From the IMG/VR virus record IMGVR_UViG_3300033979_000007, positions 1 to 42,667 of that record: a stretch of DNA of 42,667 nt, one strand, 5' to 3'. The position numbers and the translations under genes are program-made. The stretch is from a virus. Positions 3,054-42,667 of the stretch are shown piece by piece. How positions within the stretch are numbered: position 1 is the first letter of the stretch; every line of letters starts with the position of its first letter. The notes beneath the pieces were generated by a model. It was not told the DNA's origin and ran no database searches. It worked only from the letters and a program-made list of their open reading frames with translations.

Positions 3054-3721
3054 TATAAACCATATCTCCCCTTGTATGCATTGTAATATGCGGAGATTTG
3101 TGATGGTGTTAGTTCAACATTCCATAAACCAATTTTTGATAAGGTGCATGGAGCATAATAGCCTGAATAATTTGCTATCGTAGCACCCGATGGATTGTTC
3201 AATGTGCCTGTATATGTAGAGGTAGAGGCATCCCATAAAGTTCCATTAACATATAGTTTAAGAGTCGATCCAGATGACCAGGATACGACAAAGTGATACC
3301 AGTTACCATAAGTTGCAGTGAACGCTGTTTCGGTTGCGATATTTCCTATTGTTACCAAACTCGCTTGACCAAATACAGAATTATCAAAAAATTTAGTGCC
3401 TGTGATGATATAATCAAGAGAGAATAGAGTTGTTGTTGCACCTGCATTACTACCAGTGATTTTGGCAAAGGTGCTCGTAGTAAAAGCAGTCATACCGGTG
3501 GTGCCTGCTATACTGGCTATGTCACCATATTGATTAGTTCCGTTAAAAGTCAATGCACCACTACTGTATGTTGGTGCATTAGACAGTGTAGCGTTGTTAC
3601 CATTACCAGATAAATCATACCAGGTTGATCCACTACCGGGATAACTGGTAGTTGTATAGGCGTCTAGGTCTACAAGTAACCCCTGTGCTAGTATTTTAGA
3701 TGGTCCATAGGTTACTGCCAT
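3053..3721 (-). CDS. LamG (concanavalin-like) structural protein
   Basis: This 222-residue protein is essentially one LamG/concanavalin-type domain. It shows GLLVDLDAY, then TWYDLSGNGNNATLSN, LTFNGTNQYGDI, WYHFVVSW, KLYVNGTLWDAS and a final SKIGLWNVELTPSQISAYYNAYKGRYGL. This is the minimal form of the fold whose neighbour carries a large insertion; the ends match the neighbour (KIYNRTLSASEIEQNFIALRGRYNI). Such single-domain proteins are common in T4-like phage fibre loci and are presumed to be adhesin or decoration subunits. It overlaps both neighbours by one base (TAATG at 3053 and 3721), so translation is probably coupled to the large fibre gene before it. Confidence 0.82.
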   Translation of the reverse strand: MAVTYGPSKILAQGLLVDLDAYTTTSYPGSGSTWYDLSGNGNNATLSNAPTYSSGALTFNGTNQYGDIASIAGTTGMTAFTTSTFAKITGSNAGATTTLFSLDYIITGTKFFDNSVFGQASLVTIGNIATETAFTATYGNWYHFVVSWSSGSTLKLYVNGTLWDASTSTYTGTLNNPSGATIANYSGYYAPCTLSKIGLWNVELTPSQISAYYNAYKGRYGL

Positions 3722-16672: not shown

Positions 16673-19600
16673 TTATAGTTGTAGAGCGATTGCTCTTAGA
16701 TCAGCAATTCTTGGGAAGATTGCACTACTATCAGACTTTAGTCCAATCTTAATCTGGAACTGTTTGAATCCAGAGAATGTTGTACCGACTGAGTTAGTGT
16801 ATCCAACAATAGGATCTCCAAGATCATTTGTACCAGAATACATACTACTTGGTAGTTTGAAGTTATATTCTCTCCAATCTTTTCTGTTTGATAGTGAAGA
16901 ATAGACTGATGAGTTTAATGGTACTTCAATCCATTGTCTCTGCCAGATTGGTTCAAAATCTTCTGCATTTGAAACACGGACATAAACAATGAAATCAGAG
17001 TTTGATGATGGTGGACGATAAGCAGAGAGAATGATTCTTAGATCCTCTGCATCTTGTCCGTCAGCAAGTGTTACAACTTGAGAGATATACTTATTCTTCA
17101 AACCACCACCAGATGCATTAGTTTCACCGGCTGTATTGGCATTGATCAAGTTTCTGTGATAGATAGAATATGTCTTGCCAACATCAAGAACTGGTGATAG
17201 ATAGTCAGATGTTGTTGATAGTGATACCTTGACTCTGTTTGAAGGTACACTACCATAGGAGCCTATCTCGGTTGATCTTGAATAGATTGCCATCTCATTA
17301 TCATAATCAATATTGGTGCTTGGTGGGACAGCAATGTAGTCCGAAGCGATACCAGTATTGCTTCTAGTTGACATAGCAAAGTCTAGATATGTTCTATTGA
17401 AGTCAATATATCTTGGTTCAAAACGAGTTGTTGCATACACATACTTAGAAATAGTTCCGACTGAGGATGTGTTTGATGAAAGTATTCCTGTTAGAATATC
17501 ATTAGCGGTAAACAATCCATTTGAATCTTTTAGAACTAGTGAAGTTGTGTTCGAAACATTTAGTTTTGACTTAGAACTATAAATCTCACCAGTTGGTGTT
17601 GTCTTTAGTAGAACTGTTGATGTAACTGTTCCATATACAGTACCGTTAGCATTAGCAAAACTTACTGTTTCACCAGCAGTATAACCAGTACCGGATACTT
17701 TATAGTTACCACCACTGATAGATACTACGCTAGTATTAACACCAGAGGTCTGACCAATAACTCTATCACCAACAATGATAACTCTGGATGGTGATGAAAG
17801 ACCTAGTGTATCATTACCGTTGATCATTTCACCGAACCAAGATGTGTTAGCAGAACTTCTTCCAGGATCTGGTAGTTCAATAAACTCTCTTGTTTGGTTA
17901 CCAAGAACAACTTCACCGATAACGTTTGTATCGAATACTGCACGATTGAACTTAACCTTTAAGTCAACTCTAGGAACAGCATCCCAATCTGTATTGTTAT
18001 TGGTTGTGAATAGTGTACCAGTTAGTGGTCTCTCATTTACAGGCTTCTTAGTGATGATATCATTATCACCAAGAACTGAAACATACATGTAATAGTTTGG
18101 ATTAATGCCCTGTGTATGAATAACGAAAGCATATTCGGTATTATTCATCAAGAATACAGGAACTTTAAACTTAACGTTTGTTGCAACTGAACCGTCATCA
18201 GATACATTGACTTCAGAAGTAGTCATGAATACTTCTGAATATGGTACTTGAACAGTTGTGATATTACCAGCATTGTTCATGGCACGAATTTCGAACCAGA
18301 CACCCTTAACAGGATCTTTGCCAGCAAAATAAACATCAACGCTTGATAGGAACATACCTTCATCACCGTATAGAGATACTAGTTTGAAGGAGTATGCCAT
18401 ACATGAACCCATCCATGCTAGTGGATAGTTGACTGAAACACCACCACCAGAGTTTTTTGTTACAACTTTAACATTTGCTAGTTGTGTGTTTGATGTATTG
18501 GCATAGTTTAATACTGCTGTTGTTGATGATGGACCATAATCGATACCATTCTTAACTTCGGTAACGATAGTACCGGTTGACATCACAGTATCTTGTTTAT
18601 ACTGTGTTGTGCCCTGTGAGTAGAAATGTGTCATTGCGGCAGATGTAGCGTCTTTGTCATTTGTAGGACTATCTGTTACAACTACTTCCTTCGTTCCTGT
18701 TCTGAAGGTTTTGCTACCATCAGCAGGTAGTCTTAGAATAGCATATAGGTTACCATCTTCATCAGAATAGAGTTTGTCACCTTCTGTTCCATCTTTCCAT
18801 AAAAGTTTGTTCATTGTGATGGCACCAATTGATGATTCAAGTGATGATGGTACTCCAAGAATACCAAGAGCAGGAGCAGCAGGTGTGATATAATCATTCA
18901 TCAATACACCATCAAAGTAAACAAAATGCTTTGTTGATGCTTTAAGTCCCTTAGCATGAAGGGTAATTGTCTGTGGTCTAATGTCTGCAATAGGAGCAAC
19001 ATTTACAACCTTATCACCTAGACTATGTGTTTCTGTCTGAATACTTTGGAAAGTTTCCTGCATCGATCTAGACAACTGAGTAGTTGTATAGGTCTGATAG
19101 TTGTATGTGTCATTTGTTGTAACATAATTATTGTATGTTGTATCAGTTTTAGTAACAGCAGCATAATTTCTTTCAACAAGTCTCCAACCAACAAAGAAGT
19201 CTGGTTCAATTGACGAGGTAGAATATGCTGGTGAAATGACTGTAGTATTATTACCAACTAGAACCCAACCGTTGTCTACTTTTGTAGAAGAAACCAATAC
19301 CGGTTCTGATTTGGTGACACCGGTAACGTTTGATTCGTATGCACCATATACAACGCTATATGGTGTAATATCTTCGTCTGTAGGACCGAAATAAACTTTC
19401 TGTGCATTTAGACGTTCTGTATTGACCCAATAGTCTGCATCTGGACTTAGGAACAGTTTACCCAAGAACTTATAGACAGTTGTTTCAACGTTTCTGAATG
19501 TGGTTGCATAAGGTTGTTCTGCAATCGTTTCTTCTGTGTGTGGTAGAAGAACTAGATTACCAACTTGAACAGAATTGGTGTTAGAATAAACATCGTAACC

Positions 19601-22600
19601 GATCTGTGCAACGTCACAAATTGGTCTGAGTGATCCTTCCTTAGGATCGTAGCAGATGTGATGATCAGGATTTGCTGCATCAGAGGTTGCGAAACTAGTG
19701 AATGTATCAACGAAGATACCATTCTTGAATCTATCGTTTCCGTTTTCGTCAAGAATTTTAAGATCAGCAGCAGCCTTCTCTAGTAGAGATAGACTGACAT
19801 AGTTTTCTAAATTATCAACACGCTGCTTGATAACACCAATATCTCTCATGGTGTATCTTACATATGATGTTCTTCTAGAATAACATGCCAAGTCTGGTCT
19901 GCGAAGAATACTTGCATAGTTTGGTGATATTGATGGATATGGAGATACATATACTCTAGCACATGACATCAATTCTTCTGGGCAAACAGGAGTTACTGGC
20001 TTGGTTGATGGAGCACCCTTGATTACTCTGAATTGTCCACGAACGTCAACAGCAACAATATCAATTCTTCCTAGATATTTCTGATAATCAAACATCACTG
20101 GTTGAGATTCTGCTGGGATTCTAAGACCATTTGAGTCAGACTGGAAAGTTGTTGGTGCTGCTGTTGGATTTGTTGTTGCACCAGCAACGGTTGTTGCATC
20201 AGCAGCAGTATTTACATATACTGGTCTAAAGTCTAGATAGTTTCTGAGATCGAAACCAATGCCATAACCACTATAATTATAAAGTGGAATCTGGGCAGTT
20301 GTAATCTGGTCTGCTAGTGTGTTAACATCGTTAATTGGATAAGAGTCAACGGAGAAATAACCAACACCTAGTGTATAGTCTGGTTGGAAATAATCCAACT
20401 CAACTAGTAGATAAGTTCCTGATGCTAGAGCAGCCTTAGGTGTAACATAGCCATGACCATAGAAATCATTTCTCTGACCATCATCGATTTCGAAGTCACT
20501 TGTTACATTAGTTCCTTCAGAGGATGATGTGGAGAAGTCAGATGCTTTAGACCAAATGTTTTTGACTTTGAATACATCAGAGAAACCTATGTCATAAGGA
20601 CCGGTCAAGCCATTAGGATGAGTACCACAATTAATCTTGATATATCTGCTTAACTTTAGGTGTTTAGCAACTTCTCTGGCACTTGATCTAGAAACTGTAT
20701 ATGATACAGTACCACTTCTGGATGAAACTAGTGATTCTTTAAGATCAAATGTTAATGAACTTGATGTGGCCACAACTTCTCTTTCCGCACCAGTGGCATA
20801 TCCAACACCTGATAGATCAATCATGTCACCAGCGGTATAAACCTTAACCATAGTGTCACTTGCTAGTGTCGGAAGATTCTGAGTAACAGTTAGAACAGTA
20901 TCACTAGTAATATTATTGATGACATAAACACTACCTGGTGTTCCAGAGAAGCGTAGTTTATCACCAACGTTCAAACGTGTGAATTGTGTTGATGTACCTG
21001 TTAGAGTCTTGGTGCCACCACCAGATACAGTTGTACCTAGGATTGCGATATCAAATGATTCATTGATCGTCAAGAAAATGTCTTGCTTGTCTGCACTTGA
21101 TAGTGTAGTAGATCCGTATGGGAAGAACTCTGTATCAACTGTTTCTGAAACAGCAAAGGTACCACCTGAGGTGATGGTAACATCCTTTGTTCTCTTGAAT
21201 GAGAATGATGTATCAACAGTTCCGTCATACGATCTAATGTTCTTAATGTCGGTTGAGCCGACATGATACAATAGAGGTACAGTTGATTCTTTGATAACTG
21301 CACTACCAGAAGATAGCACAACGTCAGCAACGACGTTTGCCGTTGAAACATTCTTTTTGAATACGCTTCTAACACTAGAGAACGCATTTGTTCCTAGCAT
21401 GTTAACGTCCATTAGATGAACTCTGATTTCACCATTTGCTGTACCAAGTGAACCACTAGTTCCTCTTGAAAGTGATTTTACTTTAGCAGTACCGATTTTG
21501 GTACCAGTAGGACCACCGACTGAACCAACACCGCTAGAAACTCTGGCTTGTGCTGTGTTATAAAGATCGATTGGTGTGCCTAGATTTAGATTCCATGCAC
21601 CAACTGCTTCTTTAACTGTAACATAATTACCTAGTTTAGAACTTACAATCTGTCCATTGATATTAGCATATGTTGTCGCTTTTTCTGCAATGACATGAGT
21701 TGAACCATTGGTGTTAATCTCGTAACCCTTAACATATGCTTTACCCTTTTCGATCTGGTAAGCAAGTAGGTTAGAATCACCACCCTGATCTAGTTTTAGG
21801 TAACCGTCATTTGTTCCATTATTAAGATGTTCTTTAACAACAACGTTAAAACCAGAAACGTAATAGTCACCAGATTCATCACTGGTGCGTCTTGCTAATT
21901 CATCATTGACAATATTATATGTAGGACGTTCTGCAACCTCAGATACGTTGCTATTTCTAATAATGAATAGATTAACGTAATTTGGTGGTGCAGCAGGATC
22001 ATCAATTTCAAGTCTAGTTAGTGTTGGGATAATCTTAAAGCGATCAGCACCTGGTGCTGCATAATTAGATGATTCTAGTGCAGGATCAAGTAGTGTTGCG
22101 TCCTGTGATGCATCAACAATCTGTTCTGTCAATACGAATCCAACCTTACACGTTGGATTAGTTCCGTATCTATCAATAGCGACTGTCTGCTTTGTATGGT
22201 GAATGAAATGTTGCTTACAGAAACGAACACCTTCATTGATTGTGAAGATTGTTCCTAGACCGGTTGGCGCTGTATTACCAACAACTAGAGTGCCGACGTT
22301 TGCAATTAGTGGTTCGTTAGCAGCGAAAACAACTTCACCGGTGTTAGCATTACCTGAACTATAGGTAACATATAGTGTCTTTGGCTTGTCTGTACCTTCA
22401 GCACCGTCTAGGACGAGATTGACGGTTGCTTGAATGCCAGTTACCTGACCTGTTACTACTTGATTCTGAAATAGGCTAATATCAACGTCATTACCGTTTG
22501 TATCTTTATCACCGACTTTAATATAATTTGCACCGAAATCAATATTATATTTACCACCAAGAACCATGCTTCCTTCTTTAAACATATGTTGACCAAACTT

Positions 22601-22807
22601 CTGAATCTGGTCCTGAAGCATAGACTGAATCTGTGTTAGTTCTCTTGATTGAACTGAGAAGCCAGGCTTGAATAGGATTCTGTGATAGTTTTTACCGTCG
22701 TCAAAATCATCATAATAAGGATTTACATTGAAGTTAGTAGTGATAGGGCTTACGTTTGAGTAGTAAAACTCATTGTTAGCATATACATCGGTGCCGTAAT
22801 CAGCCAT
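16673..22807 (-). CDS. Large DUF4815 baseplate/structural protein
   Basis: This 2044-residue protein begins with ADYGTDVYANNEFYYSNVSP. Around residues 30-90 it has YYDDFDDGKNYHRILFKPG, VQSRELTQIQSMLQDQIQKF and HMFKEGSMVLGG, the signature of DUF4815, a family of very large virion proteins in T4-like cyanophages. The middle contains YFQPDYTLGVGYFSVDSYP and the RRTSYVRYTMRDIGVIKQRV and NLENYVSLSLLEKAA segments. The C-terminal half is beta-rich and ends with a jelly-roll-like strand set (SGFKQFQIKIGLKSDSSAIF). It follows gp8 in the wedge order, where T4 has gp9/gp10, so it probably forms the outer baseplate that anchors the fibres. The ATG is preceded by AAGGACG. The outer-wedge role is inferred. 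Confidence 0.85.
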   Translation of the reverse strand: MADYGTDVYANNEFYYSNVSPITTNFNVNPYYDDFDDGKNYHRILFKPGFSVQSRELTQIQSMLQDQIQKFGQHMFKEGSMVLGGKYNIDFGANYIKVGDKDTNGNDVDISLFQNQVVTGQVTGIQATVNLVLDGAEGTDKPKTLYVTYSSGNANTGEVVFAANEPLIANVGTLVVGNTAPTGLGTIFTINEGVRFCKQHFIHHTKQTVAIDRYGTNPTCKVGFVLTEQIVDASQDATLLDPALESSNYAAPGADRFKIIPTLTRLEIDDPAAPPNYVNLFIIRNSNVSEVAERPTYNIVNDELARRTSDESGDYYVSGFNVVVKEHLNNGTNDGYLKLDQGGDSNLLAYQIEKGKAYVKGYEINTNGSTHVIAEKATTYANINGQIVSSKLGNYVTVKEAVGAWNLNLGTPIDLYNTAQARVSSGVGSVGGPTGTKIGTAKVKSLSRGTSGSLGTANGEIRVHLMDVNMLGTNAFSSVRSVFKKNVSTANVVADVVLSSGSAVIKESTVPLLYHVGSTDIKNIRSYDGTVDTSFSFKRTKDVTITSGGTFAVSETVDTEFFPYGSTTLSSADKQDIFLTINESFDIAILGTTVSGGGTKTLTGTSTQFTRLNVGDKLRFSGTPGSVYVINNITSDTVLTVTQNLPTLASDTMVKVYTAGDMIDLSGVGYATGAEREVVATSSSLTFDLKESLVSSRSGTVSYTVSRSSAREVAKHLKLSRYIKINCGTHPNGLTGPYDIGFSDVFKVKNIWSKASDFSTSSSEGTNVTSDFEIDDGQRNDFYGHGYVTPKAALASGTYLLVELDYFQPDYTLGVGYFSVDSYPINDVNTLADQITTAQIPLYNYSGYGIGFDLRNYLDFRPVYVNTAADATTVAGATTNPTAAPTTFQSDSNGLRIPAESQPVMFDYQKYLGRIDIVAVDVRGQFRVIKGAPSTKPVTPVCPEELMSCARVYVSPYPSISPNYASILRRPDLACYSRRTSYVRYTMRDIGVIKQRVDNLENYVSLSLLEKAAADLKILDENGNDRFKNGIFVDTFTSFATSDAANPDHHICYDPKEGSLRPICDVAQIGYDVYSNTNSVQVGNLVLLPHTEETIAEQPYATTFRNVETTVYKFLGKLFLSPDADYWVNTERLNAQKVYFGPTDEDITPYSVVYGAYESNVTGVTKSEPVLVSSTKVDNGWVLVGNNTTVISPAYSTSSIEPDFFVGWRLVERNYAAVTKTDTTYNNYVTTNDTYNYQTYTTTQLSRSMQETFQSIQTETHSLGDKVVNVAPIADIRPQTITLHAKGLKASTKHFVYFDGVLMNDYITPAAPALGILGVPSSLESSIGAITMNKLLWKDGTEGDKLYSDEDGNLYAILRLPADGSKTFRTGTKEVVVTDSPTNDKDATSAAMTHFYSQGTTQYKQDTVMSTGTIVTEVKNGIDYGPSSTTAVLNYANTSNTQLANVKVVTKNSGGGVSVNYPLAWMGSCMAYSFKLVSLYGDEGMFLSSVDVYFAGKDPVKGVWFEIRAMNNAGNITTVQVPYSEVFMTTSEVNVSDDGSVATNVKFKVPVFLMNNTEYAFVIHTQGINPNYYMYVSVLGDNDIITKKPVNERPLTGTLFTTNNNTDWDAVPRVDLKVKFNRAVFDTNVIGEVVLGNQTREFIELPDPGRSSANTSWFGEMINGNDTLGLSSPSRVIIVGDRVIGQTSGVNTSVVSISGGNYKVSGTGYTAGETVSFANANGTVYGTVTSTVLLKTTPTGEIYSSKSKLNVSNTTSLVLKDSNGLFTANDILTGILSSNTSSVGTISKYVYATTRFEPRYIDFNRTYLDFAMSTRSNTGIASDYIAVPPSTNIDYDNEMAIYSRSTEIGSYGSVPSNRVKVSLSTTSDYLSPVLDVGKTYSIYHRNLINANTAGETNASGGGLKNKYISQVVTLADGQDAEDLRIILSAYRPPSSNSDFIVYVRVSNAEDFEPIWQRQWIEVPLNSSVYSSLSNRKDWREYNFKLPSSMYSGTNDLGDPIVGYTNSVGTTFSGFKQFQIKIGLKSDSSAIFPRIADLRAIALQL

Positions 22808-34654: not shown

Positions 34655-35110
34655 CTATTTATTCTTCTTATTAAACAGTTCTTTTTCGGTTATCAGTTTA
34701 AATTCCCACCCCTTGTGCTGACAATATTTAGATGCAGCATCCCACTTGGCTTGATTCACACCATATGTCATAACCTCATTGAGAAACCTTTTAGTTTGTC
34801 TCTGTGGCTTCTTAGGTACTTGTGTCTGTGCAATAGGCTTAACCTCTAGTAGCATCACCTTAACAGAACCATCTGGTGCTCGTGCTTCAACATAAAAGTC
34901 AGGGAAATATCTATGAACTTTATTATCAACAGGAGACACATAAGGTATAATAATCTCCTCAGATGACCAAGATATAACATTAATATTATCATCTAGTGAA
35001 TCCATTACTCGTTTCTCCCAACCGGAGCGATAGACTATATTGTTTGCATCACCACGATACTTGGAGGGGTTCTTCGGTCTGAAAAAACCCTGTTTGAAAT
35101 TAGTTGCCAT
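34655..35110 (-). CDS. 4: Head completion protein gp4
   Basis: This 151-residue protein (T4 gp4: 150) has the family pattern FKQGFFRPKNPSKYRGD, IVYRSGWEKRVMDSLDDN, VISWSSEEIIIPYVSPVD, HRYFPDFYVEARAP and MLLEVKPIAQTQVPKKP. It has an endonuclease-like fold with D and E/K residues in the PDFYVE...LLEVKP region. In T4, gp4 acts late in head maturation, before tail joining. It is the first gene of the leftward unit, with AGAGG about six bases before the ATG, and it faces gp48 across a 48-base divergent gap. Its stop lies in an AATAAATA. Confidence 0.92.
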   Translation of the reverse strand: MATNFKQGFFRPKNPSKYRGDANNIVYRSGWEKRVMDSLDDNINVISWSSEEIIIPYVSPVDNKVHRYFPDFYVEARAPDGSVKVMLLEVKPIAQTQVPKKPQRQTKRFLNEVMTYGVNQAKWDAASKYCQHKGWEFKLITEKELFNKKNK

Positions 35111-35158
35111 TATATACCTCTGCTAAATATATGTAGCATACTTTTATAGAGGAAACAA
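35111..35158. promoter_or_regulatory. Divergent intergenic region between gp4 and gp48
   Basis: This 48-bp gap separates the leftward and rightward structural units, so promoters for both must lie in or near it. It contains several AT-rich partial matches (CTAAATATAT on plus, TATAAAAG on minus, each six of eight to TATAAATA). AGAGG ribosome sites flank both ends. No single promoter is clear. Confidence 0.35.
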
Positions 35159-35992
35159 ATGAAATCAACTTGGGCAGATACGTTTAACACAATGTTTGGT
35201 GCGGCATCAGATAGTGTATCAGGTGCTATCAATAGGGTTACCGATACAGTATCAGCAGCAGCGAGAGATAAAGCCGTTGCGTTTCTTGAAAGTGCTGGTG
35301 GTGAGAAACAGTATCCATATGATGAAAATAGATTCCCTGAGGATCTTGGTGATGATCAAACGGGACATTATCTAAGAATATCCGTCTATACAGGTGGTGC
35401 ACAAGCAACAGGTTCTCTCGGACTTAACCCACCAAACTATAACGCATATACAGCATATCTGTTTATTCCTGGTGCGGCACCGGGTGAACAAATGCCATTG
35501 ATCTATGATATGAACCATAACTTTACTGATATTAGATTGACAAACATTATCAATGACAGTCTGTTAGGTGTCACCGCTTCACTAGCAACCAGAAGGGCAA
35601 TTAACCCAATGGTTCAGGTTCTCTATAGAAGCAGCAATCTAAGACAGTTTGATTTCTCTTTTCTCATGGTACCACGTAACGAGAAAGAGTCACAGTCTAT
35701 TGAGAATATTGTCAAGAATATTAGAGCATATGCAGCACCAGAGTTTTCAGGACCAGCAGTAATCGCACCAGCAGAATTTCATTTCTCAATTTGGAACAAA
35801 GACACAAGATATCCTAACACACATATACCACTTATTGAAAGATGTGTTATCAGTAAGGTGCAAGCAAACTTTGCACCACCAGGAACATTCTCTACCTTTA
35901 GAAATGGTTACCCAGTCTCATGCTTACTCACATTCTCTGCCACTGAAGTCAGACTCATTGACAGAAGAATGATTAAGGATCAAGGTTTCTAA
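35159..35992 (+). CDS. 48: Baseplate tail-tube cap protein gp48
   Basis: This 277-residue protein (T4 gp48: 364) begins with a helical N-terminus and then YDENRFPEDLGDDQTGHYLR. The core has YTAYLFIPGAAPGEQMPLIY, AINPMVQVLYRSSNLRQFDF, and SFLMVPRNEKESQSIENIVK, then a FHFSIWNKDTRYPNTHIPL strand and SCLLTFSATEVRLIDRRMI. This tube-like fold pattern matches marine T4-like gp48. In T4, gp48 caps the baseplate dome and, with gp54, nucleates tube polymerisation. It opens the plus-strand block, with AGAGGAAAC before its ATG, and the next gene follows after two bases. Confidence 0.8.
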   Translation: MKSTWADTFNTMFGAASDSVSGAINRVTDTVSAAARDKAVAFLESAGGEKQYPYDENRFPEDLGDDQTGHYLRISVYTGGAQATGSLGLNPPNYNAYTAYLFIPGAAPGEQMPLIYDMNHNFTDIRLTNIINDSLLGVTASLATRRAINPMVQVLYRSSNLRQFDFSFLMVPRNEKESQSIENIVKNIRAYAAPEFSGPAVIAPAEFHFSIWNKDTRYPNTHIPLIERCVISKVQANFAPPGTFSTFRNGYPVSCLLTFSATEVRLIDRRMIKDQGF

Positions 35993-35994
35993 TA

Positions 35995-36654
35995 ATGGCA
36001 TCTTTTACCATAGAAAATCCACCTACAAATACTACAATGCTGGACTTCAATGCAGCAATTAATGATCTAGGTGCACCTGCTAAGAACTGTCGATTTGCTA
36101 TTCAGATATTACCTTCGGGTTTAGGTCCGAATGGTCACTTCTTATATAAACTTGGCTATACAAGTATGCTCAAGGACCTCACCTATCTATGTGAAGCGGT
36201 AGAGTTTCCTGGTCGTGGCTTCGAGTTCATCGAATCAAGATATTATGGTCCTTCACAGTTTCTACCATACAACTCAAAGTATAACAACGAGTTTTCTGTT
36301 TCAATCCTAACTAGACAAAAAGCATATGAAAGACAAATGTTTGATGACTGGTTGGAAGTTATTAACCCAACAAACACATTCGACTTTAACTACACAGATG
36401 TTTATTATGCCACGATTAGAGTATTTCAATTAGCAGAAATATCAAATGGTGAAAAGTCACCAACAAGAGGTAAGGCATCATATCTCTGGGAACTTAAACA
36501 AGCATGGCCATTTCAGGTTAATCCACAGCAGGTTACCTGGGCTGATAATGACGTTCTAAGATTGAATATCACATTCACATATAGATACTGGAGTAGACCA
36601 GGAAGAGATGCTATACCTGGAGGTTCACCAATACCTTTGAGTCCAGCAACATAA
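35995..36654 (+). CDS. 54: Tail-tube initiator protein gp54
   Basis: This 219-residue protein (T4 gp54: 320) is a tube-like protein. It contains NCRFAIQILPSGLGPNG, LTYLCEAVEFPGRGFEFIES, NEFSVSILTRQKAYERQMFD, DWLEVINPTNTFDFNYTDVY, then LWELKQAWPFQVNPQQVTWA and LNITFTYRYWSR. This resembles the gp54/gp19 tube family of T4-like phages. In T4 it polymerises on gp48 and starts the inner tube. It is two bases after gp48 and 11 before gp26. The gp48/gp54 order is as in T4. Because it is short, it could be an ordinary tube subunit paralogue, but the context favours gp54. Confidence 0.82.
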   Translation: MASFTIENPPTNTTMLDFNAAINDLGAPAKNCRFAIQILPSGLGPNGHFLYKLGYTSMLKDLTYLCEAVEFPGRGFEFIESRYYGPSQFLPYNSKYNNEFSVSILTRQKAYERQMFDDWLEVINPTNTFDFNYTDVYYATIRVFQLAEISNGEKSPTRGKASYLWELKQAWPFQVNPQQVTWADNDVLRLNITFTYRYWSRPGRDAIPGGSPIPLSPAT

Positions 36655-36665
36655 TGGAGTAAATA

Positions 36666-37424
36666 ATGTCTTTGCCTATTGAAACGAGCAACAAACCGTT
36701 GCCCAAAATTGATGTGCCAGTTTATACAGTAAAGATACCATCGAGTCAGAAAACTATTAAGGTCAGACCATTCAACGTTAAAGAAGAAAAACTTCTACTA
36801 ATGGCAGCAGAGTCTAATAGTGGTGAGGAGATTGTTAGCACGGTTAAGCAAGTGATCAATAACTGTATCGTGAGTGGAACTTTTGATGTAGATAAAGCAC
36901 CATTCTTTGATATCGATTTTTTGTTTATCTTTCTACGTGCTAAGTCTATCGGTGAGTCAGTTGAGATTAATCTTACCTGCCACAATATATTGAATGATGA
37001 AGAAGGAAGAGTTTGTGGTCATACATTCAAGACCAATATGGACATTTCTAATAACGAGATTATCTATAATGATGAAGTAAAAGATGATGTCAAACTAGAT
37101 AAGACCAGTGGTGTCATGATGAAATATCCAAACTATGCACTGATTAAGCAGTTGGATGACACTCCGGACAATGAGAAGAAAACCAAAATTATCATGAACT
37201 CTATTGAACACATATATGATAAAAAGGGTGTGTATTCTGCTAAAGACTATTCATCTAAGGAACTTAAAGATTTCATTGAGGGGCTAACAGAAGAAAACTA
37301 TAAGAAACTGGAATACTATATCGACAACTTCCCTTCTTTCTTAGTTAAGATCGAAGCAGACTGCCCTAAATGTGGCTTTCATCATGTTGTGAGGTATGCA
37401 GATTTCCTAGATTTTTTTCAGTAA
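36666..37424 (+). CDS. 26: Baseplate hub assembly protein, gp26 family
   Basis: This 252-residue protein belongs to the T4 baseplate gp26-type family. The N-terminus has PKIDVPVYTVKIPSSQKTI, then VRPFNVKEEKLLLMAAES and VKQVINNCIVSG, the hallmark of the group (T4 gp26: 208 residues). Two Cys pairs, C105/C117 and C233/C236 (CPKC), look like a zinc site. In T4, gp26 is needed for hub assembly and is not abundant in the particle. The last codons before the stop run over seven T residues, in phase for -1 slippage into the next gene. Confidence 0.87.
   Translation: MSLPIETSNKPLPKIDVPVYTVKIPSSQKTIKVRPFNVKEEKLLLMAAESNSGEEIVSTVKQVINNCIVSGTFDVDKAPFFDIDFLFIFLRAKSIGESVEINLTCHNILNDEEGRVCGHTFKTNMDISNNEIIYNDEVKDDVKLDKTSGVMMKYPNYALIKQLDDTPDNEKKTKIIMNSIEHIYDKKGVYSAKDYSSKELKDFIEGLTEENYKKLEYYIDNFPSFLVKIEADCPKCGFHHVVRYADFLDFFQ
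37412..37418 (+). other. Candidate -1 programmed frameshift site (T TTT TTT)
   Basis: Seven T residues occur in the phase T TTT TTT relative to the gp26 frame: the last base of Asp249, then Phe250 and Phe251. Only one codon (CAG) separates this from the gp26 stop. The -1 frame is open from about 37370 through the whole 75-residue gene to 37654. A shifted product would be about 329 residues. The next gene's ATG has no ribosome site, which supports coupling or shifting. Confidence 0.55.
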
Positions 37425-37426
37425 TA

Positions 37427-37654
37427 ATGGGTCATGACAGACTCGGGAATGTATTTAAAACGAACTTTGCATTGATGCAGCATCATCACTGGAGTTTAAC
37501 AGAACTAGAACAGTTGATGCCGTGGGAAAGATATATCTACCTTGACATGCTAAAACAATTCTTAGATGAACAAGAGAAACTAAGAAAGCAACATGAGCAA
37601 GAACAAAAAGCAAAACTATCGCAACTAGAGCGTCAAGCAAAAATGAGAAGGTAA
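37427..37654 (+). CDS. 51: Small hub-assembly protein, gp51-like
   Basis: This 75-residue protein starts at the ATG at 37427, two bases after the gp26 stop. It contains FKTNFALMQHHHWSLTELEQ and LMPWERYIYLDMLKQFLDEQ, then a charged helix to the end. The PWE-R-Y core and the position after gp26 resemble the small T4 hub catalyst gp51 and its marine T4-like counterparts. No SD sequence lies ahead of the ATG, so translation is coupled to gp26 or the protein is made as a -1 frameshift fusion. It is tightly followed by the lysozyme gene (stop at 37654, ATG at 37655). Role by context: assembly of the baseplate hub. Confidence 0.72.
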   Translation: MGHDRLGNVFKTNFALMQHHHWSLTELEQLMPWERYIYLDMLKQFLDEQEKLRKQHEQEQKAKLSQLERQAKMRR

Positions 37655-39922
37655 ATGGCATTATCCTTTAAACTAACAAAAGCAAACTACGATGCTCTAA
37701 GAAGCATGAGCATGTCACAGAGAATACAAGTAGCCAAGAACGATGAAGTCGGTCAATGGCTCTTGTCTCTAATGTCACCTACTCAATTAGCAGAACTCTT
37801 CCCACTATACTATCAGAGAATGTTACCTGTAGATATATCAGGTTTCGCTAAAGCAATGCCAACGTCAATGACAATGGCCAAGCAAAGAGCAATCGAAGAA
37901 CAGTTACAGAATACGGCTTCTGGAGCATCTGCCGGTGCCAATATGCAAGCAGGTGGATGGAGAAAGAAGTGGCAAGAGAGTATGACTGCTAAGGTTGGTA
38001 AGACACCACCTCCACAATTATCAGAAGAACAGAAAAAGACATATGATGCATTGAAGTCTACACCAATGGCTGTCGATGATCCTCGTGCTAAGATGTTTGC
38101 AGGACTAGATGAAAGTCAATTATCATCTGTTGGTGTTAAAAAGATTACACAAGATGGTAAAGACTTCTTCAAATATACTGCACCAACTGTAAGTGACGAA
38201 GAAGTAAAACGAGCAATCGCAAGTCAAGGCAATTTTGAGCAAAGAGCATCAGCCTTTATGCCAAGATTACAAAAAGATTTGAATATTACAAAAGAACAGG
38301 CAGCGGGTATTATAGGCAGTCTAGGAGGTGAAACTGGTGGGCTAAAAGCAGTTCAAGAATTACATCCAGTAATTCCAGGCAGTAGGGGTGGTTTTGGTTG
38401 GGCTCAATGGACAGGACCAAGACGAGTTGAGTTCGAACAGTTTTCTGCTGCTAGAGGATTAAGTATTACCTCTGATGAAGCAAACTATCAATTTTTGGTG
38501 CATGAACTCAAAGGTAGTGAATCAAAAGCACTTAATCAATTGAAGCAAACTGGCAGCGTCGATGAAGCAGCAAGAGTATTTACTGGTTCAGCAGCCACAG
38601 GCATTGGCTATCTGAGACCTGGAATTGAACACTACGGCTCAAGTATTTCAAAAGCAAGACAGGCATATGGTGCAATAGGTATTACTAATGACTATTCGGA
38701 TAAGTCAATGGAACTTGCTAGAGAAAAACTTATTCGCAATATGGAAGCCAATAGAATTGGTACACTAGCAGAATATACTAATGCAGGACTACCAGCACCA
38801 GGCTCACCAGAAGCCTCAGCAATCGTTGGTGATACTAAAGGTGCTAATGCAGTTGCATCAAAGATTAAAGATCAGTTTGGTAATCTAAGCAACCCACAGT
38901 GCGTTGCTCTAGCAAAAGCGTATGTTGGTTCTAATAGTTCTGTCACAGAATGGCGCCGTGGTTCTAATGTTATGGACGGTACACTAAAGCCAGGAACACC
39001 TATTGCTACATTCATGGATAGAAAAGGCAACCCATCTTCAATGTATGACGGTGGACAAGGTGTCGGTGCACCAGGTAATCACACAACCCACGCTGCTGTC
39101 TTCCTAGACTATCAGAGAGATGGTGCAGGTAAGATTACAGGCATTCGTGTCATGGAGCAATACAAAGGCTCTGGAGGTGCTCATGAACGCACATATCCTG
39201 TCGGTGGCTTCGGTACTAACAATGCTGCTAACTATCACTCTATTAATGATAAGAGTGGTGCACCATTAGGGTCTACTAATCCTATGGTACAAAACGCAGC
39301 AGTTGATCCACCTAAGACACCACTTGCCGATTATACTTCTAAAGTTCCTATGCAGGCTAACCCACCACCTAAACCAGTAGAAGCAAAGCCTGCAAACAAA
39401 GACAATGCACAACCACCTAAACAAGTAAAAGCAAATGCTAAAGGTGGTATTAACAAGATTAACACAGAACAAATCTCAGCATATCCAATCGGTGGTGCTC
39501 AAGGTGATAATGCAGTTGTTGTCAATGCACAGCAGCAACCACTCTTTACAATGAATACTAATGAGAAGATGCTTATTGATCCTAAGAAGGATACGGCACA
39601 GGTTATCCCTGATCAAAAGCCAGATGTGAGCCAGAAGCCAACACAAGATACAGGTGTTATGGATGAATTTAAAGCAGCCATTCAGGAACTTAAAAACGAG
39701 TTCTCACAGAATGATCCTGGCAAGTTTAAGCAACCTGATATGCCTAATAGAGAGACATTCGATAAAGATACACAACAGGGTCATATATTAGATGGTATGA
39801 ATGATTTGTCTAAAGAATGGTATTCAACACCTTCAATGAAACGTGCTGCATTTAGAACAGGTGGTGTTGAGACCGGTGAACCAGTAAGTAACTTCCATTA
39901 TAGTCACGGTAACAGATCATAA
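37655..39922 (+). CDS. Tail protein with phage tail lysozyme and BPSL0067/NlpC-P60-like domains
   Basis: This 755-residue protein carries two probable cell-wall hydrolases. Residues about 190-330 hold a phage tail lysozyme domain: IIGSLGGETGGLK with E226 as likely catalytic Glu, GGFGWAQWTGPRR, and FLVHELKG. Residues about 410-515 hold a BPSL0067-type (CHAP/NlpC-P60-like) domain: NPQCVALAKAYVG with C416, W-R-R-G, IATF, THAAVF with H479, and GIRVMEQYKG. A Pro/Lys-rich linker (about 535-610) and a helical end follow. No signal peptide or membrane segment is seen. It follows the gp51-like gene with no gap, in the position where T4 has gp29. I infer that it is a tail-tip or internal tail protein that opens peptidoglycan at injection, replacing the lysozyme missing from gp5. 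A tape-measure role is possible but unproven. Confidence 0.82.
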   Translation: MALSFKLTKANYDALRSMSMSQRIQVAKNDEVGQWLLSLMSPTQLAELFPLYYQRMLPVDISGFAKAMPTSMTMAKQRAIEEQLQNTASGASAGANMQAGGWRKKWQESMTAKVGKTPPPQLSEEQKKTYDALKSTPMAVDDPRAKMFAGLDESQLSSVGVKKITQDGKDFFKYTAPTVSDEEVKRAIASQGNFEQRASAFMPRLQKDLNITKEQAAGIIGSLGGETGGLKAVQELHPVIPGSRGGFGWAQWTGPRRVEFEQFSAARGLSITSDEANYQFLVHELKGSESKALNQLKQTGSVDEAARVFTGSAATGIGYLRPGIEHYGSSISKARQAYGAIGITNDYSDKSMELAREKLIRNMEANRIGTLAEYTNAGLPAPGSPEASAIVGDTKGANAVASKIKDQFGNLSNPQCVALAKAYVGSNSSVTEWRRGSNVMDGTLKPGTPIATFMDRKGNPSSMYDGGQGVGAPGNHTTHAAVFLDYQRDGAGKITGIRVMEQYKGSGGAHERTYPVGGFGTNNAANYHSINDKSGAPLGSTNPMVQNAAVDPPKTPLADYTSKVPMQANPPPKPVEAKPANKDNAQPPKQVKANAKGGINKINTEQISAYPIGGAQGDNAVVVNAQQQPLFTMNTNEKMLIDPKKDTAQVIPDQKPDVSQKPTQDTGVMDEFKAAIQELKNEFSQNDPGKFKQPDMPNRETFDKDTQQGHILDGMNDLSKEWYSTPSMKRAAFRTGGVETGEPVSNFHYSHGNRS

Positions 39923-39946
39923 AAAAGGGGAGCATTTCTGCTCCCC
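39921..39946 (-). terminator. Intrinsic terminator of gp32 (between convergent genes)
   Basis: A perfect 8-bp stem (GGGGAGCA / TGCTCCCC) with a 4-base loop lies at 39927-39946, followed on the minus strand by six T. This is a classical Rho-independent terminator for gp32, seven bases after its stop. The same hairpin lies five bases after the plus-strand 755-residue gene but has no T run in that direction, so it may only weakly stop that transcript. Confidence 0.9.
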
Positions 39947-39953
39947 AATTCTA

Positions 39954-40886
39954 TTAGTCCTCAGCAAGTTTTCTAAACATTGCTAGATCCTCATCCTCGT
40001 CATCTTCGACAACGGGAGCCTTCTTAGCAACTGGCTTAGACTGGGTGAATGGAACATCATCATCGTCATCAACAACTGGTGACTTCTTAACAACTGCGGT
40101 TGCTACAGTCATAGTTGAGGTACCGGTTGATAGCCCCATAACGTCATCAAGACGCTTCTTCAATTCATCATAAGACTTGAAGTTCTTAGAGTCAACAATC
40201 TCCTTGAGAGAATACTCAGACTTCCAAATTGTTTCCAACTCAGAGTCATCTTCACTCAAAGGACCTGGTGTTAAGAATGTTGATTCATCGTAGTTTGGAA
40301 AACCAGACTGACGGGTCATCTTCAACTTGAATGGTGCACCAGCCCATAGATCGAATGGGTTGACCTTGGCTTCTGACTCAAGGTCTGGGTTCATCATCTT
40401 TGTAATCTTATCAAAGATTTTCTTACCATACTTGAATAGAAATACCTTACCCTCATTCTGTGGGTTCTTAGGATCGTTGATAACCTGAATATTAGAGACA
40501 TAGTGCAGACGACGCTTCTGATCACGAGCCTGCTTACGCTCCGGTGAGTTATCATCACCCGAAGCATTCCACAGAGTGGAGTTATACTCAGAAACAGGAT
40601 CCTTCTGACCTAGAGTCGTTAGGGACTTCTCAATATACCACTTACCAGTGATCTTATTCTGGAAGCCATGGTCCCAATACTGTACCCATGGTAGAGCATC
40701 TTCACCGTCTACTGCTGGGCCAGGAAGAAAGCGAATAACTGCTAGAGCATTACCTGACTTATCAGGGGTAGGCTTCCAATAGTTATCGGTTTCTTTGTTT
40801 TCGTATGTGGGGGTATTGAGTTTGTCCACTTCCTTTAGTAGGTTATCAAAGGACTTAGACTGCTTCTTGAGGTTTGCAAAGTTCAT
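39954..40886 (-). CDS. 32: Single-stranded DNA-binding protein gp32
   Basis: This 310-residue protein (T4 gp32: 301) begins with a basic LAST-like segment (NLKKQSKSFDNLLKEV). The OB core has LAVIRFLPGPAVDGEDALPW, YWDHGF, KRRLHYVSNIQVINDPKNP and EGKVFLFKYGKKIFDKITKM, and the tail is very acidic (EDDEDEDLAMFRKLAED). It coats single-stranded DNA at forks and recombination intermediates; the acidic tail recruits partners such as gp59. Unlike T4 gp32 it has no cysteine at all, so the T4 zinc site is absent. GGAGA precedes the ATG at 40886. It has its own sigma70-like promoter and a strong terminator. Confidence 0.95.
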   Translation of the reverse strand: MNFANLKKQSKSFDNLLKEVDKLNTPTYENKETDNYWKPTPDKSGNALAVIRFLPGPAVDGEDALPWVQYWDHGFQNKITGKWYIEKSLTTLGQKDPVSEYNSTLWNASGDDNSPERKQARDQKRRLHYVSNIQVINDPKNPQNEGKVFLFKYGKKIFDKITKMMNPDLESEAKVNPFDLWAGAPFKLKMTRQSGFPNYDESTFLTPGPLSEDDSELETIWKSEYSLKEIVDSKNFKSYDELKKRLDDVMGLSTGTSTMTVATAVVKKSPVVDDDDDVPFTQSKPVAKKAPVVEDDEDEDLAMFRKLAED

Positions 40887-40928
40887 ATATTTTCTCCGTA
40901 TGTTCGTTGTATAGTCGTATTATCCACA

Positions 40929-40936
40929 TATTCATA
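40929..40936 (-). promoter_or_regulatory. Possible late promoter of gp32 (TATGAATA)
   Basis: The minus strand reads TATGAATA, seven of eight matching TATAAATA, within the gp32 leader, about 43 bases before the ATG. If used, it would give a second, later promoter downstream of the sigma70-like one. It may also be coincidental. Confidence 0.25.
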
Positions 40937-40949
40937 ATATAATGTTTGT

Positions 40950-40978
40950 ATTGTAACAGAAGAATCTCCTTCTGTCAA
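40950..40978 (-). promoter_or_regulatory. Sigma70-type promoter of gp32
   Basis: On the minus strand a perfect -35 TTGACA (40978-40973) and a -10 TACAAT (40955-40950), one base from consensus, are separated by 17 bases. Transcription should start near 40943, giving a leader of about 57 bases before the gp32 ATG at 40886. It is the only near-consensus host-type promoter I found in the window. Confidence 0.88.
40956..40975 (-). promoter_or_regulatory. 20-bp dyad (possible operator) in gp32 promoter spacer
   Basis: A perfect inverted repeat, ACAGAAG-N6-CTTCTGT, fills the spacer of the gp32 promoter, overlapping three bases of the -35 and abutting the -10. A DNA-binding repressor there would compete directly with RNA polymerase. 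The dyad is not in the gp32 transcript, so it would act as DNA. Confidence 0.5.
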
Positions 40979-40989
40979 GTGATATTTAG

Positions 40990-41307
40990 TCACCATTGCA
41001 TAGAAGGATCATTTAGATCCTCCCATTCCCATTTGCTGATGGGATCCTTTCTTTCATCGACAACAGCCTGACACTCAAACTTGACCTCTTGTATTGTCTT
41101 TTCTCCCCATGTGCGACGAGGATTAGCACACATATAGCAACGAGGATTGCCACAGTTCATGGCATGTTTCTTGTGTAACTTGTGCTTATTGTTGTCGTTG
41201 TAATACCCATGATCGTGGGTCTTAGCGATATCAAACTGTCGTTCGATATGTCTGTCTTTCTGTTGAAATCTCTTTTGTCGTTTAGTCTTGGAGTAACTCA
41301 TATCCAT
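40990..41307 (-). CDS. Small Cys/His-rich protein of T4-like phages
   Basis: This is a 105-residue protein. I chose the ATG at 41307 because GGAGA lies seven bases upstream; the next ATG (41301) is too far from it. It is basic and His-rich, with HKLHKKHAMNCGNPRCYMC at residues 42-60. C52, C57 and C60, together with nearby His, could hold zinc. ANPRRTWGEKTIQEVKFE follows. The CGNPxCxMCxNPR element recurs in small proteins of T4-like phages, but I know no demonstrated function. It overlaps the 62-residue gene by 26 bases and lies in the replication cluster between gp59 and gp32, so a nucleic-acid role is possible. Transcribed leftwards with gp59. Confidence 0.75.
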   Translation of the reverse strand: MDMSYSKTKRQKRFQQKDRHIERQFDIAKTHDHGYYNDNNKHKLHKKHAMNCGNPRCYMCANPRRTWGEKTIQEVKFECQAVVDERKDPISKWEWEDLNDPSMQW

Positions 41308-41470
41308 AGATAATCTCCATATAATATAGAACTTCATCTGATGGCAGCCAAATAGTTTGTGTATCTTTACATACTAGAACCATTCGACCTTCTTCATTGA
41401 ATGTTCTAAAGTAATACCCATCTGCAACTTGCAATAGAATATCTGACGCTTTACCCTGTAGAGTTTCCAT
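41282..41470 (-). CDS. Small protein of unknown function
   Basis: This 62-residue protein starts at an ATG that lies 20 bases inside the end of gp59, with a strong AAGGAG seven bases before it. I do not recognise it. It is acidic-neutral with a strand-rich look (LLQVADGYYFRTFNEEGRMV, then LVCKDTQTIWLPSDEVLYYM), perhaps a single small beta fold. The overlap with genes on both sides suggests coupled translation with gp59 and the Cys/His-rich gene. The strong ribosome site argues that it is real. Confidence 0.65.
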   Translation of the reverse strand: METLQGKASDILLQVADGYYFRTFNEEGRMVLVCKDTQTIWLPSDEVLYYMEIIYGYELLQD

Positions 41471-42059
41471 TTACTTTCTCCTTGAGTATGGCTTTGATTC
41501 TATCCGAGTCATACTTTAGGAAGGGTCTATACTTTCGGACTTTCAAAGCAAGTCTTGACCAAATGATATCATCATCTCCTAAGTATTTATCAAACTTATC
41601 AGTATAGGGTATGAAATCATTTAGAATGACCGCAGACTCAAAAGCAATAGATTGACGGAGAGTAAGATTGATAATATGAGGATACTCCCCATCGACAATA
41701 CTAAAAGCACGTTTACAATCGTGTTCAAATACTCTGTCCATGTCATTCTTGAAGATATATGAGAGTGATTGTTGTCGCTTCTGTAACTCATAAAACGCTC
41801 CATGTGCATCTTCCTCAAGCATGTCTGTTATATAATGCCGATCTTCTAAGAAGTTTGCAATGTAGAAGTTTTTCAACTCCTCGGCATTATATAGTTTCGC
41901 AACCTTTTCAAAGAATGCCTTATCGTTACGCTTTAGATATGACTCCTTAGTTGCACGGAGTTTACCGTTCATCTGAAAGAAGTCATACTTAGCACTAGTG
42001 AAATGAGTTCGCAAGGCTAAGAATAACAGATATGCACCATATCCTGAGAAGTGTTTCAT
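41451..42059 (-). CDS. 59: Helicase loader gp59
   Basis: This 202-residue protein (T4 gp59: 217) matches the loader of the gp41 helicase: GYGAYLLFLALRTHFTSAKY, then LKRNDKAFFEKVAKLYNAEE, NFYIANFLEDRHYITDM and QSLSYIFKNDMDRVFEHDCK, and the C-terminal LNDFIPYTDKFDKYLGDDDI. It is an all-helical protein that binds forked DNA and gp32 and places gp41 on it. Its gene lies upstream of gp32 in the same leftward direction. Two small genes lie between them. The ribosome site before the ATG at 42059 is weak. The upstream gene ends eight bases before, so translation may be coupled. Confidence 0.92.
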   Translation of the reverse strand: MKHFSGYGAYLLFLALRTHFTSAKYDFFQMNGKLRATKESYLKRNDKAFFEKVAKLYNAEELKNFYIANFLEDRHYITDMLEEDAHGAFYELQKRQQSLSYIFKNDMDRVFEHDCKRAFSIVDGEYPHIINLTLRQSIAFESAVILNDFIPYTDKFDKYLGDDDIIWSRLALKVRKYRPFLKYDSDRIKAILKEKVNGNSTG

Positions 42060-42067
42060 TTTATCCG

Positions 42068-42667
42068 TTAGATATATGATGAATCGGTACGATAACGCTT
42101 CATGGTATCTTCCATAGTCTGTGCTGTGATACCAGCATCATCTAAGGTCTGCTTATTGATAGTATATTCAGCACCATGAATCAATACTTTGCCGATTGCT
42201 TCCTGTTTCAACTTCTCAAATGATTCACGAATGGCCTCACGGTGAGCATCTAACAGAGTTTTCTTACTGCCATCATCAAGAGTCCAACCTTTGGTAAGAA
42301 AGTTGCTTAGACGATACTGATGGTTCTTACTATTCTGATCATTATTAATCTTGAGGATCTTATTCTTGATACAGTCAAACGTCTCACGGTTGATATAGAG
42401 TTTGTCTTCCGCAGGAACAAATGAAACCTTGCAATGCTTATAGTCAAAGTGACTCAGTAGTTCCTCACGAGTCTTATACTTGGTGAGAATATACTGTGCC
42501 TGTGTCTTAGTGTTATTGATAACATCAAGAATGTTTGTATTGTGCATATAAGACATCATTTCGGAACGTGACCATTCCGTGTCTGCAAAAGGAACATCAT
42601 CAAAGATTGAATTGATAGGTGTGATAGGATTGTAGGCATCCGCCATTGCCTTTTTCGCCGCTTCTTC
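42068..42667 (-). CDS. Unidentified protein in replication cluster (5' end outside window)
   Basis: The reading frame is open to the right edge. A candidate ATG at 42646-42644 gives 192 residues (MADAYNPITPINSIFDDVPF), but no well-placed ribosome site lies ahead of it. The seven codons before it are coding-like (EEAAKKA), so the gene probably begins outside the window. I do not recognise the family. The protein is helical and charged, with EMMSYMHNTNILDVINN, KTREELLSHFDYKHCKVSFV and a final KQTLDDAGITAQTMEDTMKR. It lies eight bases before gp59 in the same direction, so a link to late transcription or replication is possible, but nothing in the sequence proves it. Confidence 0.6.
   Translation of the reverse strand, partial: EEAAKKAMADAYNPITPINSIFDDVPFADTEWSRSEMMSYMHNTNILDVINNTKTQAQYILTKYKTREELLSHFDYKHCKVSFVPAEDKLYINRETFDCIKNKILKINNDQNSKNHQYRLSNFLTKGWTLDDGSKKTLLDAHREAIRESFEKLKQEAIGKVLIHGAEYTINKQTLDDAGITAQTMEDTMKRYRTDSSYI

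Follow-up and report, generated by a model that had tools for sequence, protein, structure and literature searches.

The stretch of DNA analysed here is the whole of the IMG/VR record IMGVR_UViG_3300033979_000007 (42,667 bases, hereafter the window; the record may itself be a fragment), in which a gene for gp26 is followed by a short open reading frame (ORF) resembling gp51 of T4-like phages. In all likelihood, these two ORFs constitute one recoded gene, a −1 frameshift giving a short and a long tail assembly chaperone (TAC). This reading is carried by direct observations: the phasing of a slippery heptamer at the junction, the open frame behind it, the conservation of the junction among relatives and the homology of both parts to known protein families. 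Judged from these sequence comparisons, a conserved programmed −1 frameshift very probably makes the long chaperone in this lineage.

The features of the junction described below lie on the plus strand. The gp26 ORF (36666–37424, 252 residues), assigned as the short chaperone (TAC-N) from PF12322, phrog_150 and an AlphaFold2 model, ends with the codons GAT (37410), TTT (37413), TTT (37416) and CAG (37419), followed by its TAA stop (37422–37424). The heptamer T TTT TTT at 37412–37418, one codon ahead of the stop, has the X XXY YYZ form and the phase that a −1 slip out of the gp26 frame requires. The −1 frame is stop-free from 37370 up to the stop at 37652–37654, and translation with the slip gives 251 + 78 = 329 residues (...LDFF-SVIMGHD... 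across the junction), the −1-frame segment (TAC-C, gp51-like; 37418–37654, 78 codons plus stop) being the predicted C-terminal part. Conventional annotation would instead place there a gp51-like ORF starting at ATG 37427 (37427–37654), a start without recognisable ribosome site: no match was found ahead of it on L001, a contig with gp26 and junction identical to those of the window, on which ribosome-site and hairpin scores were computed. On the same contig, no significant hairpin was detected 3′ of the heptamer (z −1.06 over 45 nucleotides (nt) and −0.39 over 80 nt). A sequence-only reading of this DNA had proposed the phased run of seven Ts, the frame open to 37654, a fusion of about 329 residues, a gp51-like ATG lacking a ribosome site and the absence of a clear downstream hairpin, and the analysis agrees with it on all these points.

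The slip site is also singular within the window. Indeed, the 42,667 bases contain no other T7 run and no A7 run at all, and the site is the only in-phase TTTTTTT among the 12,688 codons of the 27 ORFs scanned; the background in the same codons comprises three in-phase TTTTTT(T/C) and 20 in-phase X XXY YYZ heptamers of any kind. The open −1 frame was rejected as stand-alone evidence: by itself it is weak evidence, because a −1 frame open for at least 76 codons beyond the stop accompanies 8 of the 32 long frames that run from stop to stop in the window, gp26 counting among these eight.

According to sequence searches, the window represents an uncultured T4-like lineage without close relative among phage records. 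A near-identity search with positions 35000–42667 retrieved from these records only a short match to the gp32 gene of Synechococcus phage S-SRM01 (two records), and tblastn detected gp26 relatives in 681 phage records (E ≤ 1e-5), every one below 60% identity; gp26 is identical in three other IMG/VR contigs (L001–L003). A first set of homologous junctions was composed of 80 IMG/VR loci (the best 80 of 121 in the scan) and two annotated cyanophages, and all of the 79 readable loci among these 82 display an in-phase T TTT TTT or T TTT TTC. The set was enlarged by further scans and annotated phages to 185 junctions, 122 of them distinct, and 121 after removing L180. Eight loci without a full junction were omitted (L021, L056, L067, L069, L116, L151, L155 and L169), L197–L203 stand outside all junction counts, and T2 and an Acinetobacter phage (L090, L092) were left out because their gp26 precedes gene 25. 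Two findings in relatives had been named beforehand as refuting the frameshift, namely a missing heptamer and a −1 frame interrupted by a stop. For the most part, the comparison speaks in favour of the frameshift: a phased T TTT TT(T/C/G) with a −1 frame open for 56–80 residues is kept at 109 of the 121 distinct junctions, and the other 12 do depart from the canonical heptamer. The position is likewise stable: in 103 of the 109, exactly 10 nt separate the start of the heptamer from the stop.

L180 itself (IMGVR_UViG_2974778117_000001, near 2250) has a slip run one T shorter than that of the 93%-identical L179, which puts gp26 into the third frame; this is either a sequencing error or a real variant.

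The heptamer is also constrained at the codon level. When gp26 sequences were clustered at 70% identity (43 clusters), the heptamer was found in 41, the two exceptions being L086 (Vibrio K474) and L089 (CBA120 group). As both exceptions are devoid of a Phe pair at the slip position, every cluster with the Phe pair has the heptamer. In the 41 clusters, the codon preceding the pair specifies D, S, N, F, R, G or A and always ends in T (log10 P −8.8; three clusters with a run of three Phe were scored as ‘F’ preceding the pair), and the first Phe codon is always TTT (log10 P −6.7; 344 TTT and 158 TTC in the rest of gp26), both probabilities ignoring the relatedness of clusters; the second codon varies (TTC 21, TTT 19, TTG 1). 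The 41 clusters were picked by T TTT TT, so that the T-ended codon and the first TTT hold by construction, but the test still has force because the left-out L086 and L089 have no Phe pair at this position. A column test of codon identity was applied separately to 27 window-clade and 25 cyanophage-like representatives. The three heptamer codons rank 12, 14 and 18 of 167 columns for silent conservation in the former and 4, 8 and 13 of 170 in the latter, some other gp26 columns, several of them near the gene start, being silently conserved as strongly or more. Going by these codon patterns, the heptamer codons carry a nucleotide-level signal beyond the protein-level one.

Both parts of the predicted product belong to known families. 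gp26 matches PF12322 with 178.2 bits (curated cut-off 24.5; E 2.4e-52), the only match to this family in the record, which may be a fragment, and phrog_150 with E 1.2e-57. The gp51-like −1-frame segment is a member of phrog_634 (E 1.6e-22, positions 60–120 of 121 of the profile) and weakly matches the C-terminal part of phrog_150 (E 0.049). In T2, gp51 is encoded by a separate gene of 249 residues on the strand opposite gene 26, itself followed by gene 25. T2 gp26 and T2 gp51 alike match PF12322, and the latter covers positions 13–280 of 282 of phrog_150 and 2–103 of phrog_634. Moreover, a profile of predicted fusions (from which L037 was skipped because its match range holds a stop) aligns with residues 103–245 of T2 gp51 without a gap at the slip point; the profile of the −1-frame segments alone matches T2 gp51 weakly (14.2 bits, the E-values of this search referring to four sequences). 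From these profile matches and the gapless alignment, T2 gp51 thus looks like a pre-fused long form, a relation that ties this protein to a known chaperone mechanism. T2 gp51 corresponds to the fused long form, but T2 uses two genes on opposite strands where in the window both forms would share one start and require a frameshift. A 2010 comparison of T4-like genomes had already described cyanophage gp51 as reaching only approximately 20% of the length otherwise usual for this protein, its similarity lying in the C-terminal part (PMC3037559).

If the two ORFs are one recoded gene, most ribosomes would terminate at the TAA at 37422 and release the 252-residue short chaperone. On a minority, the tRNA-Phe that decode TTT TTT in the P and A sites would re-pair one base upstream, and these ribosomes would read the −1 frame to 37654, yielding the 329-residue long form (TAC-NC). 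The latter would correspond to lambda gpGT and be homologous to the gp51 that T4-type phages encode separately. By analogy with the lambda system, the short form would coat the tape measure and the long form would recruit tail-tube subunits. Slippage in vivo, together with its efficiency, is what we infer from the sequence, and the assembly functions of the short and long forms are likewise those suggested by the analogy. The comparison with gpG and gpGT, already drawn in the sequence-only reading, gains support from the way in which T2 gp51 relates to the fusion and from the top rank of an HK97 chaperone among the solved structures resembling gp26 (albeit at E 0.43). The window nevertheless differs from lambda in its slip site, T TTT TTT, and in the membership of its protein in PF12322.

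Candidate stimulatory signals were sought on both sides of the heptamer. Upstream, the Shine-Dalgarno-like motif GTGAGGTA (37389–37396, 15 nt 5′ of the heptamer) is a putative stimulator and pairs with the anti-Shine-Dalgarno core at −7.0 kcal/mol (p 0.003–0.05 in the ten clusters from L001 to L037). This motif or its variant TTGAGGTA, with the rare Arg codon AGG at the same position, occurs in the window, L001–L037, L047, L058 and L066. AGG accounts for 2.4% of the 374 Arg codons of the window; among the 27 representatives, all 20 with Arg at the site use it, whereas it makes up 20 of 136 Arg codons in the rest of gp26, and GTG is used in 19 of the 20 with Val at the site, as against 74 of 475 elsewhere. 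By silent conservation, the two codons, GTG AGG, come second and third among the 167 columns, and AGG is found in 28 of the 40 distinct junctions of the L001–L070 group. Taken over all clusters, the Shine-Dalgarno test gives a divided picture, 13 of 41 reaching p < 0.05: the window-group clusters L038, L039, L055, L057 and L064 gave p from 0.25 to 1.0, most cyanophage clusters are individually above 0.1, and the signal rests mainly on clusters with GTGAGG. The Fisher value combined over the clusters takes no account of their relatedness and is thus no true probability. Many cyanophage-type loci carry a GAGG whose spacer, 9 nt long, falls within the 8–11 nt quoted, in the lines of PMC6321510 on this effect, for Shine-Dalgarno stimulation of a −1 shift. 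Downstream, the mean z of the RNA structure is about −1 across the 41 clusters, with values below −2 in 11 of them (45 nt). Strong hairpins (z −3.4 to −5.0, 45 nt) follow the heptamer in L075, L079, L081, L082, L107 and L142, all of which group with cyanophages by sequence, and L007 (−3.46) is the only member of the window's group past −3. RNAalifold also proposed an upstream helix of five pairs, GAGGT/ATTTC (−1.16), which was discarded as too weak to be preferred over the Shine-Dalgarno pairing. The codon usage at the site suggests that GTGAGG may stimulate the shift; if functional, it would provide a natural setting in which to examine Shine-Dalgarno stimulation across a long spacer.

The predicted fold of gp26 provides points both for and against a recoded chaperone gene. 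The AlphaFold2 model of gp26, built on 35 gp26 sequences, has a mean predicted local distance difference test score (pLDDT) of 90. Foldseek ranks the HK97 tail assembly chaperone 2ob9 first among solved structures (E 0.43, prob 0.84), and finds none of them at E ≤ 0.001. In VIA-align, the best rows are 3fgx (Z 8.2, uncharacterised), 2ob9 (Z 7.6; root-mean-square deviation 4.9, 86 residues aligned), YqbN (3klu, Z 7.2) and 5ir0 (Z 5.3, a protein from an element like a phage-inducible chromosomal island), the next row being at 4.2, and the program warns that Z below 8 may reflect a common arrangement; these four rows span residues 5–104 only, i.e. the N-terminal domain. YqbN presumably belongs to an XkdN-like chaperone family. 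A profile sequence search of solved structures with gp26 yielded nothing significant among the 17 matches listed (best E 0.074). Predicted viral structures matching gp26 are mainly baseplate hub proteins of the gp26 type, with a ‘baseplate hub assembly catalyst’ of Acinetobacter phage ZZ1 at rank 43. The model thus suggests a modest resemblance of the gp26 N-terminal domain to the HK97 chaperone, which speaks, if only to a modest degree, for a fold of the gpG/gpGT type.

Further points against this reading concern the junction. As far as the E. coli comparisons in the review PMC5009743 go, U UUU UUU is far less shift-prone than A AAA AAG. The 12 distinct junctions of 121 without canonical heptamer are that of Vibrio K474 and 11 CBA120-like ones (Ackermannviridae-type). 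At 15 nt, the spacer of GTGAGG exceeds the 8–11 nt quoted in the same lines of PMC6321510, 12 of the 40 distinct junctions of the L001–L070 group do not have AGG (having no Arg there), and RNAalifold detected no conserved downstream structure in 23 window-clade junctions. Finally, coupled re-initiation is possible in the window phage, as the gp51 ATG lies only 2 nt beyond the gp26 stop.

This last point leads to the rival explanation that survives best, which we nonetheless regard as quite unlikely: gp51 would be a separate small protein, translated by re-initiation at ATG 37427 after the TAA at 37422 (translational coupling), and the T run would be incidental. Besides the proximity of stop and start in the window, a start codon overlaps or just follows the stop in many relatives and is available within the first 12 −1-frame codons at 86 of the 109 heptamer junctions; databases also list gp51 as a gene of its own in several relatives. 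However, the other 23 junctions retain the heptamer without any ATG, GTG or TTG in these 12 codons, and only 2 of the 86 have a 4-base Shine-Dalgarno match upstream of the start. Judging from these junctions, the gp51 start is dispensable. Some of the annotations also begin far inside the conserved frame: in three cyanophages, gp51 is annotated at 3256–3393 (L094), 3295–3390 (L095) and 3256–3393 (L096), internal starts that are likely annotation artefacts of the frameshift. Furthermore, a separate gene leaves the silent constraint on the heptamer codons unexplained, and T2 gp51 includes a gp26-like part. Fusion and separately started gp51 could coexist. Cyanophages and other T4-like phages are repeatedly annotated with a small ‘gp51 baseplate hub assembly catalyst’ beside gp26, a pattern that the frameshift would explain; the best reading of this small gp51 is as the C-terminus that the shift adds to the tail assembly chaperone, rather than as a gene of its own.

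Transcriptional rather than ribosomal slippage on the T7 run could also yield a fused message, and the fact that this run is the only T7 or A7 of the window speaks for it. This origin is very improbable: the run is T6C in 65 of the 122 distinct junctions and T6G in two, and the constraint has a ribosomal codon phase, with a T at the preceding third base, TTT as first Phe codon and a varying second one. T6 runs are short for polymerase slippage. Least probable of all, to the point of being negligible, is chance, with a Phe pair conserved near the end of gp26 for protein reasons and a −1 frame coincidentally open; the frequency of such open frames in the window (8 of 32) and the near invariance of F250 and F251 as protein fit it, but not the silent conservation of the heptamer codons in two groups, nor the heptamer in 41 of 43 clusters, nor the homology of the downstream frame to the T2 gp51 C-terminus.

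The 12 junctions without canonical heptamer share a different motif, (A/C)TT TTY, at the same position, one codon before the TAA. The same motif is present in Vibrio K367, Escherichia YX22, Erwinia phiEa2809, Dickeya Kamild and Pseudomonas Cygsa01, and we take such sites to resemble the slip site of T7 gene 10. Ackermannviridae-type phages thus possibly use a different slip site. At the would-be gp51 start, the Ackermannviridae codon reads ATG, ATT or ATA, so that this start is not conserved there, and the public annotation of CBA120 contains no gene at the gp51-like frame. In Aeromonas AS-szw, a canonical T TTT TTC is found together with a frame start without ATG. The loci with noncanonical sites are L089, L093, L181–L195 and L198–L200 (Ackermannviridae or CBA120-like), L086 and L197 (Vibrio) and L202 (Pseudomonas).

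Taken together, these patterns might indicate that the chaperone shift of T4-related phages relies on lineage-specific recoding signals, a tentative picture to which, as a whole, we give somewhat less than an even chance. Much of the clade of the window would use the rare-codon, Shine-Dalgarno-like GTGAGG with a 15-nt spacer, which is unusually long, and no hairpin; cyanophage-type relatives would use GAGG with a 9-nt spacer, supplemented in several of them by a hairpin downstream; at the same position, slippage on N NTT TTY would take place in Ackermannviridae and in some phages of Vibrio and Pseudomonas, with a decaying gp51 start codon; and T4 would have dispensed with the shift by carrying two genes.

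The recoded chaperone gene has precedents. Frameshifting reportedly appears conserved in several T4-like groups, T4 itself being said to use separate genes, according to the 2022 article of Vladimirov, Gautam and Davidson in Virology (566:9–15). Where the PRFect paper deals with tail assembly chaperones of T4-like phages, it cites Vladimirov, Gautam & Davidson 2022, and it mentions that some of these phages have instead a separate short gene and a longer fused gene (PMC10885494); on the basis of the T2 comparison, the two would correspond to gp26 and gp51. A statement in PMC12846349 has it that polyT sequences in the TAC-N genes of T4-like phages are known to signal a −1 shift. Since frameshifted T4-like chaperones appear in these passages of PMC10885494 and PMC12846349, this kind of recoding is already known and the window is an added member. 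The remark in the sequence-only reading that no such shift was known at this pair in T4 fits the separate genes of T-even phages (in T2, on opposite strands), but a shift has been described in other T4-like phages. The window pair very probably likewise encodes a tail assembly chaperone of a T4-like phage, and differs from those precedents in its origin, a lineage that is uncultured and lacks close relatives in the phage records. What is new here is thus limited to one more lineage and possible lineage-specific signals.

The gene following the junction (37655–39922, plus strand) encodes 755 residues with a phage tail lysozyme domain (PF18013, E 2.2e-18) and is a candidate tape-measure-like partner, although no tape-measure family figures among its PHROG matches. 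In gpG/gpGT systems, the tape measure gene comes immediately after the chaperone gene, and the window may differ from them in this respect. The second gene past gp51 in phiM12 is annotated as similar to tape measures. Elsewhere in the window, an ORF of 2044 residues (16673–22807) matches phrog_358, a phage family of unknown function.
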